NCBI GenBank assembly: GCA_025361625.1
Contig: JANYKL010000156.1
Span: 1-32,569 of the forward strand
Origin: Acidobacteriaceae bacterium
GTDB taxonomy: Bacteria > Acidobacteriota > Terriglobia > Terriglobales > Acidobacteriaceae
Direction: 5' to 3'
DNA length: 32,569 bases
Shown: positions 11,417 through 32,569 of the stretch, in pieces
Numbering within the stretch: position 1 is the stretch's first letter
Layout: every line of letters starts with the position of its first letter
Made by a program: the position numbers and the translations under genes
The notes under the pieces: generated by a model
Told to the model about the DNA's origin: nothing
The model's input: the letters and a program-made list of their open reading frames with translations, nothing else
Databases searched by the model: none

Positions 11417-11492
11417 GCCGACGTAGCTCAGTTGGTAGAGCAGCCGATTCGTAATCGGCAGGTCACCAGTTCAACTCTGGTCGTCGGCTCCA
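11417..11492 (+). tRNA. tRNA-Thr (anticodon CGT)
   Basis: A complete 76-base cloverleaf. The acceptor stem pairs GCCGACG (11417-11423) with CGTCGGC (11482-11488), followed by discriminator T and an encoded CCA. The D-arm is GCTC...GAGC. The anticodon arm is GCCGA-TTCGTAA-TCGGC with anticodon CGT, reading ACG (Thr). The T-arm is ACCAG-TTCAACT-CTGGT. It is the apparent attachment site of the island whose integrase starts just downstream. Confidence 0.96.
11447..11465 (+). repeat. Candidate attL core: 19-bp direct repeat inside tRNA-Thr
   Basis: ATTCGTAATCGGCAGGTCA, covering the anticodon loop, its 3' stem and the variable loop, recurs exactly and in the same orientation at 27493-27511. Integrases of the tyrosine family commonly cross over in the anticodon loop of tRNA genes. 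The integrase gene faces the tRNA 3' end, as expected for attL. Confidence 0.6.
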
Positions 11493-11518: not shown

Positions 11519-12541
11519 TCACTGCACCGTCAAATCACTGTGACGTGAATTGTGACGTAGATTGCGCTGTTCAATGGCTTCGCGGATGGGTTCAATGCCC
11601 GGATGTTGATACCGCATTGAGGTGCGCACATCGCTGTGGCCCATCACCTTCATCACCATTGCCAGGTTGCCGGTTGCTTCATACGCTGCCGTACCAAAAA
11701 TATGGCGGGCGCAATACAGTACCAACGACTCAGGTAGACCGAGCTTGCGACGCGCTTCCCGGAACTGCTTCGCCACGGTCGTCAAATGACCTCCAGCCGC
11801 CCTAGTAGACGGAAAAAGCCAGCCGTCACGTTTGCCCGCGCTACGGACCATCAACAGGTCAGATATTCGCCCACTGATTGGCACGTGCCGACGGGATGCT
11901 CTGGTCTTACCTCCAGGATTGAAGATAATCCCACGGACCCAGTCGACGTTCTCAAGCCGAATGCGAAAGACCTCCTCAGGACGCATGCCTGTGTCCTGTA
12001 TCACGATCAGGACGTCCTTCATCGGTTGTTTTGCGATCGCGAGCAACTTCGCCTCGGTCTCGGGACTAATCGTTTGTTCCCGGCCCAGTTCCTTCATCAA
12101 CTTGACCCGTGGCACTGCGGTTATGACGTTCCATTCCACCGCCTTGCCAAGCATTCTTCGCAGCGTGCGAAGCGCTTGGTTGACGTAAGACGGAGAACCT
12201 TTCAGTCTAAGCGAGTCGACTTCTTCCGTTGTGATTCGGTCTAGGCTCATTTCGACCAGCGGAGTTCTGCCAATTTGATCCCAGCCTACGCTGTAGTAAC
12301 GCCGTGTCTTCGGAGCGAGATCTCGCGCATGTTGTACCCATTCCATAAATCGCTGACCGAAATCGCCGAGCAACGGTGCCCGACGTAACACAGCTCCTGG
12401 TCCTCGTTCTTCTGCTTTTGCCACCAGCTTCGATTCGATCTTCCTAGCCCTAGACTCCGATGATTCGTAGGTCGTACCTCGTTGGCGCCGACCCGCGACC
12501 ATGAAATCGTAGTGCCAGACATTGCCTCGCCTATACAGCAT
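11519..12541 (-). CDS. Tyrosine recombinase / phage-type integrase
   Basis: A 340-residue site-specific recombinase that would integrate and excise the island at the neighbouring tRNA-Thr. An N-terminal arm-type DNA-binding part (LYRRGNVWHYDF) is followed by a SAM-like core-binding domain and the catalytic domain. Catalytic residues visible are Arg I in DTGMRPEE, the beta-hairpin Lys in GGKTRASRRHVPI, the box II segment YCARHIFGT (Tyr in place of the usual first His, Arg and His kept), and GHSDVRTSMRY with the His and the nucleophilic Tyr. The ATG at 12541 is chosen because GGAGG lies six bases upstream; the longer frame to 12619 adds a tail unlike the family. It overlaps the end of the excisionase-like gene by 11 bases, so the two are probably translated together. 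Confidence 0.9.
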   Translation of the reverse strand: MLYRRGNVWHYDFMVAGRRQRGTTYESSESRARKIESKLVAKAEERGPGAVLRRAPLLGDFGQRFMEWVQHARDLAPKTRRYYSVGWDQIGRTPLVEMSLDRITTEEVDSLRLKGSPSYVNQALRTLRRMLGKAVEWNVITAVPRVKLMKELGREQTISPETEAKLLAIAKQPMKDVLIVIQDTGMRPEEVFRIRLENVDWVRGIIFNPGGKTRASRRHVPISGRISDLLMVRSAGKRDGWLFPSTRAAGGHLTTVAKQFREARRKLGLPESLVLYCARHIFGTAAYEATGNLAMVMKVMGHSDVRTSMRYQHPGIEPIREAIEQRNLRHNSRHSDLTVQ

Positions 12542-12740
12542 CCTTGGCCTCCATGTATGCCCGCACGGAAGGAGTTCGGCGATTGCGTTGAATGTACCGC
12601 AAAACGTCCTCCTCGGCATAACGGATTGACCCTTCCATCTTGATCCAGGACGGGCCTACTCCGACCTTCCGCCAGTAGCGCACCGTGCCTTCTGGGACGG
12701 AAATCATTTCGGCCAGCAATTTGGTCGTGAGAAGCTTCAT
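12531..12740 (-). CDS. Excisionase-like helix-turn-helix protein (AlpA/HTH_17 type)
   Basis: A 69-residue DNA-binding protein with a winged MerR-like helix-turn-helix: LLAEMISVPEGTVRYWRKVG forms the HTH, followed by a basic wing and EEDVLRYIQ. Small proteins of this kind next to integrases act as excisionases or recombination directionality factors. It overlaps the integrase start by 11 bases on the same strand. Confidence 0.8.
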   Translation of the reverse strand: MKLLTTKLLAEMISVPEGTVRYWRKVGVGPSWIKMEGSIRYAEEDVLRYIQRNRRTPSVRAYMEAKDAV

Positions 12741-15392: not shown

Positions 15393-15624
15393 GTTGCGAT
15401 TTCCGAAACGTGGGTCGCAGGCGGCGTGTGAGGCTGCGCGCTCACTGCTTTTAAACGAGCGTGCCCATTTTTGTGCCCGATCTCGATGCCAGATGATAGT
15501 TAAGTTGTGGGCATTTTCTTCGGATAAAATCCTTACTTAACGCTCTGAAAATTCAAGGAGGTAGCAGCCAGTCACAAACTATCGCAAATCATTGTGAAGT
15601 GCCCTTCTCACAACTCGGCGGAGA

Positions 15625-15832
15625 GCTTCCGACGGCGTGCGCTCCACCGCCACCTAATAGCATGCACCATGGTCGACACGCATGCGCTCAACGCCTCGCG
15701 GATTTCACTGTCGTCCAGCGTGATCGATTTTGGCATACCCCCGATGAGGTTCCGACCTTTTATCTCATAATTAGCGGCTCGTTTAGCGCGTACGCCAAGC
15801 CTATCTCGATCTTCATCTACTCCGCCGACGTC
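15625..15832 (-). pseudogene. Remnant of an MreB-like actin homologue (C-terminal part)
   Basis: Three minus-strand frames together read as the C-terminal subdomain of MreB/MamK-type bacterial actins. The pieces in order are: a TSAE-stop-MK segment running into KIEIGLAYALNEPLIM (frame 1, ending in a stop), IKGRNLIGGMPKS then ITLDDSEIREALSACVST and MVHAIR (frame 2), and VAVERTPSE (frame 3). In MreB the matching stretch is TAEEIKI.IGSAY, then G.P..I...EIREAL.E....I..A...ALE.TPPE. At least two frameshifts and one stop interrupt it, and no N-terminal part is visible upstream, so this is a decayed fragment. A plus-strand open frame over the same bases (15599-15871) is a chance shadow. Confidence 0.6.
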
Positions 15833-16084
15833 TGGGATGATCTATTCGCAGCTCGCTGCGCATTTCCGTAGGACTGAAGCTTGCGCCGTGGGGCGGCCGC
15901 TGTTGCTTGCAATCTTTCGGTGGGTGAACATTTGTTTCGTCGGGGTAAAGAAGATGCATAAGAGCGCACCTTCTGTAAGCTGATCTGGTTTGGCAAGAAC
16001 CTGAGACCCGCTGATACTTGTCATCCACTAGCACGTTGGGCTTGCGGGCTTTGTGTTCAGTGGAAGGCGTTTCGATTCAGCTGC
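15833..16084. other. Stretch between the MreB remnant and the Crp/Fnr gene
   Basis: No gene is recognisable. This may be further decayed sequence belonging to the MreB-like remnant, but I cannot read a convincing protein from any frame. Confidence 0.3.
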
Positions 16085-18015: not shown

Positions 18016-18945
18016 TCAATGAGCCGTTTCTCTCGCGCCCTTCATTTTGTAGAGTGCGTGATCCGCCATGCGCAGCAGATTTTCAACGGTTTCGCCATTT
18101 CGAGGGTGAATCGCAACGCCAACGCTGACAGAAAGCCGTGGCTTTTCGGTATCATTCGCCAAGCTGTCGCAAACCCGCCGAGCCACCAACCCCGCCGCGT
18201 CTGCTCCTGTCTCCGGCAGAACAAGTGCAAACTCGTCTCCGCCGAATCGCGCCGCTGTATCAATGTCTCGCGAGCAGATGCGCAAGGCGTCGGCCAGCCT
18301 GCAAACCGCCTTGTTTCCTACCAAATGGCCGTGACGGTCGTTGATGTGTTTCAGTCGGTTCAGGTCAAGTAATAACAAGGCGAACTCGCGTCCGGTCCGT
18401 TCAGACCGTTTGATTTCGGTGCTGAGCACGCCTAAAAGCTGGCGATAGTTGGACAGACCAGTCAGCGCGTCGTGCGTCGCCTGCCGCCGCAGTTGACTCT
18501 CCAGTGCGCGCTGTTTGGTGACATCCTCAACGATGAGCTCGTAGCTTTCCCGCGCTCCCTGCTCGGCGCAAACTTTGCGTCCGGCAAGCCGGACTCGCAC
18601 GGAAGTCCCGTCGTTTCTCTTCCATTCCGTCTCGAAGGCTTTGATTCGATCTTTATGGCCGAACTGCCCTAGTATTCGTGCCCGCGTAGTGGGATGCAGA
18701 ATAACCGCGCTCGCGAGGTTAGCTGCCAAAAGTCCTTTCTTAGATGTGTACCCAAGCATAGTCATTAGTGCCTGGTTGACATCCAGGAAGCTGCCGTCTG
18801 GGCTGCATCGGCAGATTCCGTAGAATAGGTTTCCGATCAAGGCGCGGTATTTAGCTTCTGAATGTTTCGACATTTTCTCGGCCCGATCGCGCTCCACGCG
18901 CAGGTTTCCGTCGTTGGCCACCGGAAGGTAACCGATATAATCCAT
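18016..18945 (-). CDS. PAS-GGDEF diguanylate cyclase, N-terminally broken
   Basis: Up to 309 residues of a cyclic-di-GMP synthase. A PAS domain spans roughly residues 30-145 (AKYRALIGNLFYGI, then DGSFLDVNQALMTMLGY). The GGDEF domain follows (about 155-305) with HDALTGLSN, the metal/substrate segment DLNRLKHINDRHGH, and an intact active site RFGGDEF (235-239). An RDID motif at 226-229, five residues before GGDEF, is a classical product-inhibition I-site. The first residues (YIGYLPVA...NLRVERDRAE) are not a natural start: they continue a response-regulator receiver whose earlier parts lie in two other frames (18945-19019 and the tail of the histidine-kinase frame). The catalytic part could still be made by internal initiation, for instance at the ATG before SKHSEAKYRAL. 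Confidence 0.75.
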   Translation of the reverse strand: MDYIGYLPVANDGNLRVERDRAEKMSKHSEAKYRALIGNLFYGICRCSPDGSFLDVNQALMTMLGYTSKKGLLAANLASAVILHPTTRARILGQFGHKDRIKAFETEWKRNDGTSVRVRLAGRKVCAEQGARESYELIVEDVTKQRALESQLRRQATHDALTGLSNYRQLLGVLSTEIKRSERTGREFALLLLDLNRLKHINDRHGHLVGNKAVCRLADALRICSRDIDTAARFGGDEFALVLPETGADAAGLVARRVCDSLANDTEKPRLSVSVGVAIHPRNGETVENLLRMADHALYKMKGARETAH

Positions 18946-19019
18946 TTTTCTATATAGTTGGAGGCACTCCCTGTAATGAACTCCACCACGCTTTCTCGTT
19001 CAAGGGTGTCGATGACGAA
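18945..19019 (-). pseudogene. Middle piece of a receiver domain, in a third frame
   Basis: This short segment reads FVIDTLERESVVEFITGSAS then NYIEK, which matches the part of a receiver domain after the beta-4 strand ('FVSGT.GEE.AVEA...GA.DYV.K'). Its left neighbour, ending KQMPLI, is in the histidine-kinase frame; its right neighbour, NIGYLP-like, is in the GGDEF frame. Two frameshifts (near 19019 and 18945) therefore separate what was once one receiver-PAS-GGDEF protein. Confidence 0.6.
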
Positions 19020-19911
19020 TGAGCGGCATCTGCTTCCCTGATTGATGGAGGGGTTCCAGGGCCTGCGTCCCCTCCCAGTTGGGACTGAGGTAGTCGGCCA
19101 CAACAAGGTCATGGGGCTGCGAACTCAGCCGGGCAGTCAACTGCTCGGAGGCAAAAGGCAATCGCGCAACGACCATCGTACCCGTTACGCTGGAACGTAT
19201 TTCCAGTTGGCCGCGAAACTGTCCCGCTCTTTCTCTCATTCCTCTCAACCCAACCCCTGACGGCCGTTCAATAGGCATTCCTTTGCCCTTGTCCTGAACC
19301 TCAACTCGAATCTCAGAGGGGAAACGCAACACCTCGACTCTAGCCGTTTTGCTACCAGAGTGGCGATGAATGTTCGTTAGACACTCCTGAACGATACGGA
19401 AAATTGTGGTTTCGAGATCTATCGGCAGTCTTCCAAACTCATTAGACATGACCAGCTCGACCTTAATATCACCCCGCCCGGAAAACCCATCCAAGTACCA
19501 TCGAAGAGCCGAGGCAAGTCCCGATTCGTCAAGCAGCGGAGGGTGGAGCAAATGAGAGACTATTCGGACTTCTTTGAGCGTTTTCTGCACCAGGTCAGCA
19601 GCCTGGTAAAGAGCCTTGGCGGCCTCGGGGCTAATGCTGCTCGATTCCTTTGCTACCAATGCTAAATTCATAGTCGTTGCGGCCAGCAACTGTCCCGCGC
19701 TGTCGTGCAAGTCTCGTGCTATTCGGCGTTGTTCGGTGTCCCTCAACGTCAGCAGTCTGCCGCTAAGTTCTCTAAGCTCATCCTCAGCCTTTCGCCGGTC
19801 GTGAACCTCCTGTCGAAGCGCGGCGGTGCGCTCTGCGACCTGCACTTCCAGTTCTTCCCGGGAAATACGCAGTACTTCTCCGGCGGCCTTTCGGTTCTCA
19901 ATGTCACTCAT
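19000..19911 (-). CDS. NarL-type sensor histidine kinase fused to a truncated receiver
   Basis: A soluble histidine kinase of 303 residues from the ATG at 19911. A coiled coil (about 10-50) leads into a HisKA_3 dimerisation domain with the phosphoacceptor in RRIARDLHDSAGQ (H69). The HATPase_c domain has the N-box ECLTNIHRHS (N180), DKGKGMP and GVGLRGMRER. No sensor or membrane domain is present. From about residue 255 the sequence changes to a receiver-type half domain (HDLVVADYLSPNWEGTQAL, phosphoacceptor-like D273) that stops early at a frameshift. This looks like a deletion that joined the kinase to a neighbouring receiver-PAS-GGDEF gene, losing the receiver's first third. The open frame extends to 20142, but I prefer 19911 because a 46-codon ORF with a strong Shine-Dalgarno ends there with an ATGA overlap. 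No partner response regulator is nearby. Confidence 0.8.
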   Translation of the reverse strand: MSDIENRKAAGEVLRISREELEVQVAERTAALRQEVHDRRKAEDELRELSGRLLTLRDTEQRRIARDLHDSAGQLLAATTMNLALVAKESSSISPEAAKALYQAADLVQKTLKEVRIVSHLLHPPLLDESGLASALRWYLDGFSGRGDIKVELVMSNEFGRLPIDLETTIFRIVQECLTNIHRHSGSKTARVEVLRFPSEIRVEVQDKGKGMPIERPSGVGLRGMRERAGQFRGQLEIRSSVTGTMVVARLPFASEQLTARLSSQPHDLVVADYLSPNWEGTQALEPLHQSGKQMPLIRHRHP

Positions 19912-20128: not shown

Positions 20129-20142
20129 GTGATCACGGTCAC
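20129..20142. promoter_or_regulatory. Crp/Fnr-type operator upstream of the kinase/leader ORF
   Basis: GTGATCACGGTCAC, extended to TGTGA-N6-TCACA at 20128-20143, is a near-perfect Crp/Fnr-family site. It lies about 80 bases upstream of the leader ORF start and next to the 3' end of a decayed minus-strand gene. Confidence 0.6.
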
Positions 20143-20158: not shown

Positions 20159-21255
20159 TTACCGATTGGAAAAACCGCCTTCTGCGATCTGCAGATCGAG
20201 GCTCACGCGTTCGCCATTAATCAACACAGTTCCTGCGTCGATCAACTGCTGACCGGTACAGTCGTAGCGGGCGTAACAGCGCAGCGCGTAGAAGGGAAAG
20301 AAGAATTCTACGGCCTTGGAACTTTGACCAGCGGCGACTTTGCCAGCGAGATGGAGGTTGGCGCTGAAGCCGATGCCGTCGAACTGAAACTCGCTCTTAA
20401 AGTAGCCGAGAACGGGGCGCAGCAAGTGAGCGACGTCATCGTCGAAGGCAAGGGCCGCCAGGCGGTAGCGCGACGCGGTTTGAGACTCGGGAAGTGTGGT
20501 ATCGATCGAGAGTTCGAGGTACGTGTCGCCGCGAAACGCGACGAAGTTTGGCGCAGCGGAGGAGACAAAGTGTGCCTGCGGATCAAGTTCCTTCACCATA
20601 CTATCGAGGATCGGCTTGAGTTCGGACTGCAACACAGAGAGTGCTTGCGGCGACGTATCGCGGACTGGCGGCGGATCGGCGGGCTTGGCAGGCTTCAATG
20701 CACGCACGTTGACGGGGCTCCGCAGTTTGTCTGTGTCGTCGCCGTCGTGACGGAATCACGACCACCAGGTTTTCGGGGCGCTCGACCCCGAGGCCTCCTA
20801 CCTTCCCCAGTACATGGTGCGAAATCTCGAACGCATAAGCTTGAACGCTGGCTTGTTCTGAAATCGGTTGACGGCGGCTTTCAGAATGGGCTTGATAATG
20901 CGCAGAAAAGTTTCGCGAGCGCGCTGATCGGGATTCATCTTCTCGCCGGAGTATGCGGCGTAGTGGTGCCCGTAATCTCAAGGACAACCTTGCCTTTGTA
21001 GTGATCGAACTGAATTGAGCGCTGGTCCGCCCACTTCTGCTTGGCTTGGTCAAGATCGAGCTTGCGGCTCAGGTAAAAAGGATAATCGGTTGGCAGTGAA
21101 AGAATGTCGGCGCCGAGTTCTTTAAGAGCATCCATGTTGCGGTCTTGCAGGATGCGCAGTTCAGGATCTTTGATCTCGCTGGGAGCAGTCACTTGCGCTG
21201 CGGCGGCGGAAAAACTCAGGATTAGGCACAGCGGGAGCAGGTTATTTCTTCGCAT
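20159..21255 (-). pseudogene. Secreted protein of unknown function, broken by three frameshifts
   Basis: Pieced together, this would be a secreted protein of about 365 residues of a type I recall as common in Acidobacteria. The start has a signal peptide (MRRNNLLPLCLILSFSAAAA, ATG at 21255). It continues through KDPELRILQDRNMDALKEL and KGKVVLEITG; then, in a second frame, SGEKMNPDQRARETFLRIIK; then, in a third, AYAFEISHHVLGKVGGLGVE; and finally a 3' part including SSAAPNFVAFRGDTYLELSI and a beta-rich tail. Breaks are near 20964, 20840 and 20755. Each frame resumes exactly where the previous one ends, so the protein was intact recently. Function unknown; no enzyme motif is seen. Confidence 0.65.
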
Positions 21256-21733
21256 AGACGGACCCGGTTGTCCGGTAAGGAGGATCAGAATCAGCACGAA
21301 TATACGTCTCCGCAGGGGAGACAGTTACCTCGTCCCTCCGCGAACCTGGAGAAAATCGAGCGCGAACACATCCTCCGTGTACTGCGACAAAGCAGAGGGA
21401 CATCGAACAGAAATTCGTAAGTATAGCTGCAATACCTGCCACGAAAAAATCGGGCGGTCTAGGCGTCGCGGCTGAGCGCTTGGGGATGAACCGCAAAACC
21501 CCTGAACTCGAGAATGCAGAAGCTGAAGATTTCCCGAAAGAAGTTTTGAATCTTTGCACATCTCCTCGGGTTTAGGGGTCACGTTGGTCTGTGACTACGA
21601 TCACTGCGTGCTTTTCTATCCTCTGCGAATCTATTAATGCAGCGCTGGCCTGGAGGCTTCTGGCTGGGCCACAAAATAAGGCTGAGGCGGCCAATCCGCC
21701 GTTGCCAACGCGGACAATCTTAGAAAGCGAGAT
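21256..21733. other. Divergent intergenic region ahead of hsp20
   Basis: No gene is recognisable. It should hold the promoters of the decayed secreted-protein gene (minus) and of hsp20 (plus). A small hairpin, GTCTCC-GCAGG-GGAGAC, lies at 21306-21322, and the Crp/Fnr-type site at 21591-21604 is listed separately. Confidence 0.4.
21591..21604. promoter_or_regulatory. Crp/Fnr-type operator upstream of hsp20
   Basis: GTGACTACGATCAC matches the shared RTGAY-N4-RTCAY pattern. It lies 130 bases upstream of the hsp20 start in an otherwise empty intergenic region, a suitable position for activation. Confidence 0.55.
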
Positions 21734-22263
21734 ATGACAATGGCGACGACTACAGTCCTACAGCGCACGGAAGAGAAACCCGCAACGATCCACCCCGTGA
21801 AATTCGAAAACCTGGCCGAGCAAGTGGACAGAATATTCACAATGGTTGCCGAGCGGGCATACGAGGTCTTCGAGGGCAATGGCCGAACCTTTGGTCATGA
21901 TATCGAGGACTGGTTCAAGGCTGAGATGGAGTTGCTCCATCCCGTTCATGTCGAAATCGCCCAGGCAGCTGAGGAACTTAAAGTGAAGGCCGAAGTTCCC
22001 GGCTTCAGCGAGAAGGAAATCGAAGTCAGCGTCGAGCCGAACCGGTTGACCTCACTGGTAAGCGCGAAACCAACAAAGAAGAGAAAAAGGGCAAGACGGT
22101 CTATCAGGAGTTCTGCTCCAACCAGATCTTGCGAGTCGTGGACCTGCCGGTGGCGGTTGATGCCGACAAGGTTACGGCTACTCTGGAGAATGGCATCCTG
22201 CAGTTAACGATGCCAAAGGCCGCGAAGGGCAAGACTATCGAAATTAAGTCGAAGGCTGCGTAG
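21734..22263 (+). pseudogene. DUF2934-Hsp20 small heat-shock protein, single frameshift
   Basis: A small heat-shock chaperone of about 176 residues if repaired. Residues 30-70 form a DUF2934 module (RIFTMVAERAYEVFEGNG then FGHDIEDWFKAEMEL), an N-terminal fusion I recall from Acidobacteria and Proteobacteria. The alpha-crystallin domain starts at VHVEIAQAAEELKVKAEVPG and reaches VEPNRLT. Near 22051-22056 one base appears lost; the next frame continues exactly with TGKRETNKEEKKGKTVYQEF, ILRVVDLPVAVDADKVTATL and ENGILQLTMPK to a TAG at 22261. As read, the product loses the second half of the crystallin domain and should not assemble. A sequencing error would explain it equally well for this one gene. 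Confidence 0.75.
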
Positions 22264-27240: not shown

Positions 27241-27548
27241 TCGTCCGACGAGCAGATCGGCAAGCACACCCAAAACAGACGGAGCAACTTTGAGATTGGA
27301 ATCGCGTATCGCCGCCGCGAGCACTTGGGCCTTGGGGGAATCCAGCGGTCTAGATATCCATAACATTGAAGATAAAGGAAAGATGATTTTACGGGGGAAA
27401 ATCCGGATGCAGCCACGCAGACTAAAATTCAACAACCATGGCGCGATCCCACCTAGACGGTACCGATGTGCCGACGTAAATTCGATACGCGAATTCGTAA
27501 TCGGCAGGTCAGCGATTAAGCCCGCACCATGAAGCACCGCGCCTCTAT
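27241..27548. other. Stretch around the proposed right end of the island
   Basis: No gene is recognisable. It holds the 19-bp tRNA-derived repeat at 27493-27511. A long minus-strand open frame (27070-27798) crosses it but is antisense to the cytochrome gene's 3' part in a different frame and has no domain apart from the permease fragment. Confidence 0.4.
27493..27511 (+). repeat. Candidate attR: copy of the tRNA-Thr core
   Basis: ATTCGTAATCGGCAGGTCA, identical to 11447-11465 and in the same orientation. The bases to its right do not form a T-arm or acceptor stem, so the displaced tRNA 3' half is absent or eroded. Confidence 0.55.
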
Positions 27549-31146: not shown

Positions 31147-32569
31147 CTACTGAGAAGCCCGCTCAGTCTCATCCAGCTCGTTCAATTGACCACTTGATCG
31201 TAGAGTTCCCTTGCGTAGCGCGCGCTCTTTCATCATCACGAAAAACACAGGCACCAGAATCAACACGTGAATGGTGGATGTAATCATACCGCCCACGACG
31301 GGCGCGGCAATCGGCTTCATCACGTCGGAGCCTATTCCTGTTTCCCAGAGGATCGGCACGAGGCTGGCAAGAACCGCTGTCACGGTCATTAGTTTTGGGC
31401 GAAGGCGCTGTACGGCTCCTTCGATTGCCGCTTGCTCGATGTCGCGGTCGGTGAGTTGAACGCCCGTACCTATGCGGCGGTCCAGCGCTTCGTGCAAATA
31501 CACGACCATTACCACACCCGTTTCGACCGCAATCCCAAACAGCGCAATATAGCCGACCCACACGGCCACGCTGAAGTTGTATCCAAGTCACCATTGCAGC
31601 AGTAGACCTCCGGTCATCGCATAACTGTCGGGAAAATCAGAACCAGCGCCTCCATGACCGAATGGAATACCATGTAGAGCAGCAGAAAGATCACGAAGAA
31701 CACGACGGGCAAGATGATCTTCAGGCGTTCTTTCGCGCGCAACTCGAATTCGTATTCCCTGGACCACTTGAAGCTATAGCCCGCTGGCAGGACGAGTTTC
31801 TCCCGCAGGAGCTTGCTTGCCTTGTCGACGAATCCGCCGTAGTCGCGCGTGTTGAGATCTAGGTAAACGTACCCCGGGAGCGCGGCATCCTCGTCGCGAA
31901 TCATCGTGGGGCCTTTAGAAAAGGAAACCTTGGCGAGTTCGCCCAGTGGAACTTGAGCGTTCGAAGGCGTCGCGATTACGACACCCTTGAGCTTCTCCAG
32001 GTCATCCCGAAAATCCGGCGCGTAGCGGACATTTATCGGATAGCGTTCACGACCTTCGACGTTCTCAGCAACGTTTTCGCCGCCAATCCCGGAGGTGATT
32101 GCGCGTTGCACGTCGCCGACGGTGAGTCCGTAGCGCGGGCTTCTAGCCGATTCACCTCCACGTTCACGTAGAATCCTTGGGCAACGCGTTCCGCGAATAC
32201 GGATCTCATCTCCGGAAGGCCTCCCAGAATCTGCTAATCTTCTGTCCTAGTTGTTGAATGCCATCAAGGTTGGGTCCCTGGATCTTGAGGCCGACGGGCG
32301 TCTTGATGCCAGTAAGTTCCATGTCGAGGCGGTTCTCGATTGGCATCGTCCACGTGTTCGTCAGGCCGGGGAATTGAAGCTTGGCGTCCATTTGCGAAAT
32401 TAAGTTTTCGTAAGTGAGGCCAGGCCGCCATAGCTCCCGCGGTTTCAAGGTCACCGTAGTGTCATACATGTCCAGCGGCGCATTGTCGGTCGCGCTCTCG
32501 GAGCGACCGATGGAGCCAAAAACGCTCTCCACTTCGGGAAACGAGCGTAAAACCCTGTCTTGCTCCTGC
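31147..32569 (-). pseudogene. CusA/CzcA-type RND heavy-metal efflux permease, disrupted and partial
   Basis: The minus strand carries the C-terminal 40% of an HME-RND pump, running off the right edge. Pieces in order: ESVFGSIGRSESATDNAPLD and WTMPIENRLDMELTGIKTPV (32206-32532), then in a second frame MRSVFAERVAQGFYVNVEVN, then GIGGENVAENVEGRERYPIN through the periplasmic domain to the membrane helix IILPVVFFVIFLLLYMVFHS (31614-32111), then MTGGLLLQW, an in-frame TGA, and [18 protein letters not shown] with the helix containing [17 protein letters not shown] (31147-31569). Breaks lie near 32220, 32140 and 31620; the TGA near 31590 replaces what is normally a Trp codon. The C-terminus (DETERASQ) is natural. 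The pump should be inactive. Confidence 0.8.

Follow-up and report, generated by a model that had tools for sequence, protein, structure and literature searches.

GacA (GSU1658/Gmet_1914) and Bd0367 are Hypr GGDEF enzymes (PMC6456294, PMC9140294), a class that has been put at 0.17% of GGDEF domains (PMC9140294). Tyr304, Ser348 and GGDEF are the residues described for the Hypr enzymes that make cGAMP (PMC6456294). Here we examine a cyclase gene in a window of 32,569 nucleotides, which makes up all of contig C19 in the draft genome (G000; 196 contigs, 3.83 Mb) of a soil Acidobacteriaceae bacterium. Like GacA and Bd0367, the relatives of this gene mostly have Tyr at position 304, Ser at 348, a GGDEF (not GGEEF) motif and RxxD. 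When one relative, L055, was matched by sequence to solved proteins, GacA (PDB 6d9m) came second. In contrast to those enzymes, the family begins with a receiver that cannot be phosphorylated, followed by a PAS domain, the window copy has Asn at position 348, and the product is a predicted one.

The diguanylate cyclases PleD and WspR share with the family a receiver fold that precedes a GGDEF domain with an I-site. Both are among the solved-structure matches of the L055 model, with low full-length TM-scores. Unlike these cyclases, the family includes a PAS domain; it is devoid of the phospho-accepting Asp and of the acidic pair, and its selectivity Asp is mostly replaced. According to PMC7010744, ShkA is a kinase whose central pseudo-receiver domain binds c-di-GMP and controls the kinase. 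It thus resembles the family in placing a pseudo-receiver within a c-di-GMP-related signalling protein; however, the pseudo-receiver of ShkA governs a kinase, whereas that of the present family is part of a cyclase.

Reading frames and lesions of the locus

On the minus strand of the window, the kinase-encoding frame is open from position 20202 and contains two start codons, GTG at 20142 and ATG at 19911. The ATG (19909..19911; MSDIENRK...) is the probable start, with the GTG as an alternative. The kinase itself (19147..19911, minus strand) has no lesion, and it is a HisKA_3 histidine kinase by Pfam: HisKA_3 scored 51.4 bits and HATPase_c 39.9 bits, both above the curated cut-offs. Homology to kinase paralogues stops at about residue 332 (position 19147) and gives way, from about 19146 and in the same frame, to homology with receivers; the join (19146..19147) is direct and in frame. 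As the original prediction held, the kinase frame passes without a stop through HDLVVADYLSP to the middle of the receiver. It continues into HDLVVADYLSPNWEG and ends at a TGA (19002-19000, minus strand) inside a shifted stretch.

The receiver remnant (18905..19146, minus strand) is without its first third, also as predicted: in frameshift-aware alignment to intact relatives, homology began only at about 19146. When the DNA was aligned in this way with four intact relatives, all four alignments placed a first shift before codon 19016-19019 and a second before 18945. The steps are +1 and then +2 and sum to zero. Both lie at short T and A runs, and they bound the only part of the receiver that is out of frame, some 75 nt (~19019-18946) encoding FVIDTLERESVVEFITGSASNYIE. 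The statement that the subsequent part of the receiver (FVIDTLERESVV...) is in a different frame was therefore accurate, and exactly two shifts are present; they cancel, and in addition five codons (~15 nt) are missing near 18915, a loss that a repeat of the alignment reproduced. Judging from the receiver residues, which match those of the relatives across both shifts, the two-shift pattern is not a product of chance. With its first third absent and two shifts, the window copy does not qualify as a response regulator receiver, taken here to require a complete (beta-alpha)5 fold with a phospho-accepting Asp; nor do the relatives, in which the fold is predicted but this Asp is absent.

The PAS-GGDEF frame (18016..18945, minus strand) was assigned to a third frame in the original prediction. 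That assignment was wrong, and the three-frame reading is ruled out: kinase and PAS-GGDEF share a common frame, and a single TGA (19002-19000) divides the locus into two. The PAS-GGDEF part, whose coding sequence runs to 18019, encodes 309 amino acids from an ATG at 18945 or 285 from an ATG at 18873. Separate production of the cyclase, as was suggested, would be possible from either codon, although the ribosome-binding sequence is weak before both; no promoter-like site was found upstream of the PAS domain on the minus strand. The GGDEF domain scored 127 bits in Pfam and has both the GG[DE]EF motif and the I-site (RDIDTAARFGGDEF), making the window copy a GGDEF cyclase. Its description as intact holds for GGDEF and RxxD, but not for the selectivity residue or the second Asp of the DxD motif, both of which are Asn.

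Relatives and their pseudo-receiver

A scan matched the receiver-PAS-GGDEF gene to 12 named acidobacterial MAG loci, and a whole-genome scan found matches in 41 of 399 sampled genomes of class Acidobacteria, mostly in one other family (f7). At least 30 relatives in the class are receiver-PAS-GGDEF genes that stand alone at full length; their open frames, for the most part ~440-516 amino acids long, include the whole receiver. Within its own genus the gene is present in the source genome only (1 of 24), and within its own family only there and in G059 among the sampled genomes. Since the remaining 23 genomes of the genus lack the gene, as does every family genome sampled apart from these two, it was probably acquired horizontally.

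Separate kinase and receiver-PAS-GGDEF genes had been expected in close relatives. The stand-alone cyclase genes do exist, but the kinase adjoins none of those checked: no match to it was found in flanks of up to 6 kb on each side (named set) or 1.5 kb (others). On the flanks covered, the kinase as an ancestral neighbour of the cyclase is thus rejected. We also looked for relatives that conserve a truncated receiver like that of the window copy, on which the idea of a deletion could have foundered, and found none. A few relatives are broken by other lesions (L054/L122, L061, L142). In L054/L122 the receiver is interrupted by a single stop, and in L061 the GGDEF domain contains a shift; both retain the full receiver sequence. 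As far as sampled, the kinase–cyclase adjacency and the fusion are peculiar to the source genome.

The phospho-accepting Asp is absent from all 18 distinct family members, being replaced by Glu (14), Lys (2), Gln (1) or Ala (1). In the same set, mainly His and Arg/Ser stand in place of the acidic pair, Met has taken over from the Lys in most cases, and RxxD and GGDEF are kept in every member. Of eight tested, seven had a receiver score under the Pfam cut-off. An AlphaFold model of L055 (28 family rows) nevertheless predicts a clean (beta-alpha)5 fold for the receiver, which spans residues 27-130 with a pLDDT of ~90, followed by a long helix, PAS and GGDEF, with the placement of the domains relative to one another uncertain (pTM 0.42). 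All sampled members of the family thus have a pseudo-receiver, a feature that the original prediction had overlooked. In the window copy the phospho-Asp position is occupied by Asp, yet this copy lacks the N-terminal third and for that reason is not a working receiver. Given the state of the family, the lesions would have struck a domain incapable of phosphorylation anyway.

A tRNA-Thr island and the probable origin of the fusion

The locus lies within a segment of ~16 kb that has the hallmarks of a tRNA-borne integrative island, namely an integrase that adjoins a tRNA gene and a distant direct repeat of the tRNA sequence. A tyrosine recombinase (Phage_integrase; 11519..12619, minus strand) marks the left end, 26 bp past tRNA-Thr(CGT) (11417..11492, plus strand). 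The first copy of a 19-bp attachment-like repeat is at 11447-11465; the second, an exact direct repeat of the tRNA-Thr anticodon region 16 kb away (27493..27511, plus strand), is a candidate attR at the right end. Elsewhere in the genome, a 64-bp stretch (G000:C34:886-949) shares 86% identity with a segment made up of the tRNA-Thr 3' half and the sequence downstream of it. No tRNA is predicted there, and this stretch, which is close to another kinase gene, is maybe a second attachment scar.

Several genes within the island and just outside it are broken. In a secreted-protein gene (20167-21285, minus strand) three shifts are accompanied by a large deletion inside the gene; an Hsp20 gene (21773-22258, plus strand) has one shift. 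Both genes are intact in relatives (G127, G147, G009). An mreB relic of ~73 codons (15613-15834, minus strand) has three shifts and one stop. Conservation of the intact gene explains why its stretch is ~69-77% conserved as DNA throughout the class; an Rfam element in the conserved 212 bp (15615-15826) was considered and rejected, as no Rfam match was found and the stretch is the mreB relic. Beyond the repeat, a CzcA-type RND pump gene (31200-32568, minus strand) has three shifts and one stop, and in most relatives CzcA is ~1100-1150 amino acids in one frame. Other CzcA copies in the genome (G000:C165, G000:C98) are likewise short-framed. Crp, OsmC, the kinase and PAS-GGDEF are unbroken in the same stretch. 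The first 11.5 kb of the window is normal, as is the genome elsewhere: in 373 kb of the rest of the genome, frame switches without an explanation number 0.27 per 10 kb.

Our best reading, which we consider probable, is a deletion fusion of the kinase and receiver-PAS-GGDEF genes followed by decay in the island. The histidine kinase gene and the probably acquired cyclase gene would have become adjacent in the tRNA-Thr island; a deletion would then have taken the kinase tail, the spacer and approximately the first 38 receiver residues, leaving an in-frame join. The receiver would later have gained two small indels and the 15-nt loss, such that the hybrid frame now stops at the TGA. A kinase with a short receiver tail could still be made and, given reinitiation or an internal start, so could a PAS-GGDEF cyclase freed of its pseudo-receiver. 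The data show the domain content, the frames, the join, the relatives and the borders of the island directly; the sequence of events, the status of the lesions as true mutations and any expression are inferred. This history is favoured by the intact stand-alone relatives, none of them fused, by the integrase beside tRNA-Thr with its exact 19-bp repeat, and by broken neighbours interspersed with intact genes, unlike the rest of the genome; the mreB relic, with its three shifts and stop, argues for decay in particular. The original prediction of a deletion fusion followed by decay therefore stands in outline, shorn of its account of the frames. Its further claim to record the birth as well as the decay of a hybrid kinase/cyclase is apt for the decay, but "birth" overstates the case: the genes are not neighbours in the relatives checked, nothing points to past selection for a hybrid, and the receiver family is phosphorylation-dead. 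The last point also makes a phosphorelay from the kinase unlikely as the logic of the fusion.

Not every feature sits well with decay. The lesions are nearly all indels, with few nonsense changes, the broken CzcA lies outside the repeat-bounded island, and the receiver pair cancels exactly, as could also result from an assembly or polishing fault. A local assembly or consensus error, with the genes or the receiver intact in the organism and the join, the indels or both artefactual, would suit a 196-contig draft in which cancelling shifts sit at short T and A runs, the kinase and PAS-GGDEF halves have no lesion, and several broken genes are grouped on one half of one contig. We think it unlikely. 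Elsewhere in the genome long frames occur at about the frequency seen in relatives, decay of the mreB relic is evident on independent grounds, and intact and broken genes alternate on the same contig half: only 5 genes out of 15 contain the 12 shifts, a clustering (post hoc P ~0.013 if the scatter were even) that favours gene-by-gene decay over uniform error without proving it. Genome-wide sequencing error is rejected, since coding density is similar to that of relatives.

As the kinase and PAS-GGDEF halves are free of lesions, selection may still act on part of the locus. A functional reorganization, compatible with the deletion-fusion history and differing from it in that the locus still works, would have the kinase and a pseudo-receiver-free cyclase both made and selected. 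Of a stretch of 2124 nt, only the 242 nt of the receiver remnant contain small lesions, three in all (P ~0.0015, post hoc), the GGDEF, I-site and kinase domains are retained, and in-frame ATGs are available; nonetheless, the weak ribosome-binding sequences, the lack of a promoter-like site, the altered selectivity and DxD positions, and an arrangement seen in no relative render this possibility doubtful. That the second shift restores the original frame might hint at programmed frameshifting to yield one long kinase-receiver-PAS-GGDEF hybrid protein. Such a scheme is highly improbable: it needs two programmed events ~75 nt apart, its receiver would still be without the first third, and the hybrid occurs in none of the relatives.

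The Hypr signature of the cyclase family

If, as is most likely, the fusion and breakage are real island decay, they are ordinary and of modest interest; the wider interest is in the pseudo-receiver, Hypr-like family behind the broken gene. We aligned the GGDEF domains of the family to that of GacA (PDB 6d9m) to read positions 304 and 348. Tyr304, Ser348 and GGDEF occur together in 15 of 22 distinct domains and not in the other seven; Asn is at 348 in four, the window copy among them, and three have His304/Asp348. A Hypr GGDEF domain is defined by a residue other than Arg at 304 and by Ser or Thr at 348 together with GGDEF; the same 15 fall under this definition, whereas the window copy, with Asn, does not. 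Most relatives thus carry the Hypr signature, which the original prediction had also overlooked, and are, as a sequence-based prediction, cGAMP synthases. GEMM-I riboswitches were rejected as support for cGAMP, as they occur in 3 of 34 genomes and none in the source genome.

We tentatively entertain the idea that acidobacteria have an undescribed family of Hypr-type, cGAMP-making cyclases, controlled by a phosphorylation-dead pseudo-receiver and a PAS domain and spread by islands to other genera. The window copy would be one of its decayed members, and the Asn and Asp variants at the selectivity site may record switches between cGAMP and c-di-GMP. Cabther_A1065 is among the Hypr enzymes given in PMC6456294. 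In the literature searched, we found no paper on Hypr GGDEF and Acidobacteria together. Cabther_A1065 is presumably from Chloracidobacterium, likewise an acidobacterium, and so Hypr enzymes would not be wholly new to the phylum. If the family does make cGAMP, the signal would be common in soil acidobacteria, as the family is present in ~10% of the genomes sampled from the class. Contrary to what one would expect of receiver-GGDEF proteins, receiver phosphorylation would then not be the means of controlling it.

Tyr304, Ser348 and GGDEF are also found in L031, L032, L035, L037, L062 (minus strand), L130 and L137. The PAS motif by which the family is recognized was not found upstream of these seven GGDEF domains, and Hypr-like cyclases may therefore be widespread in class Acidobacteria.
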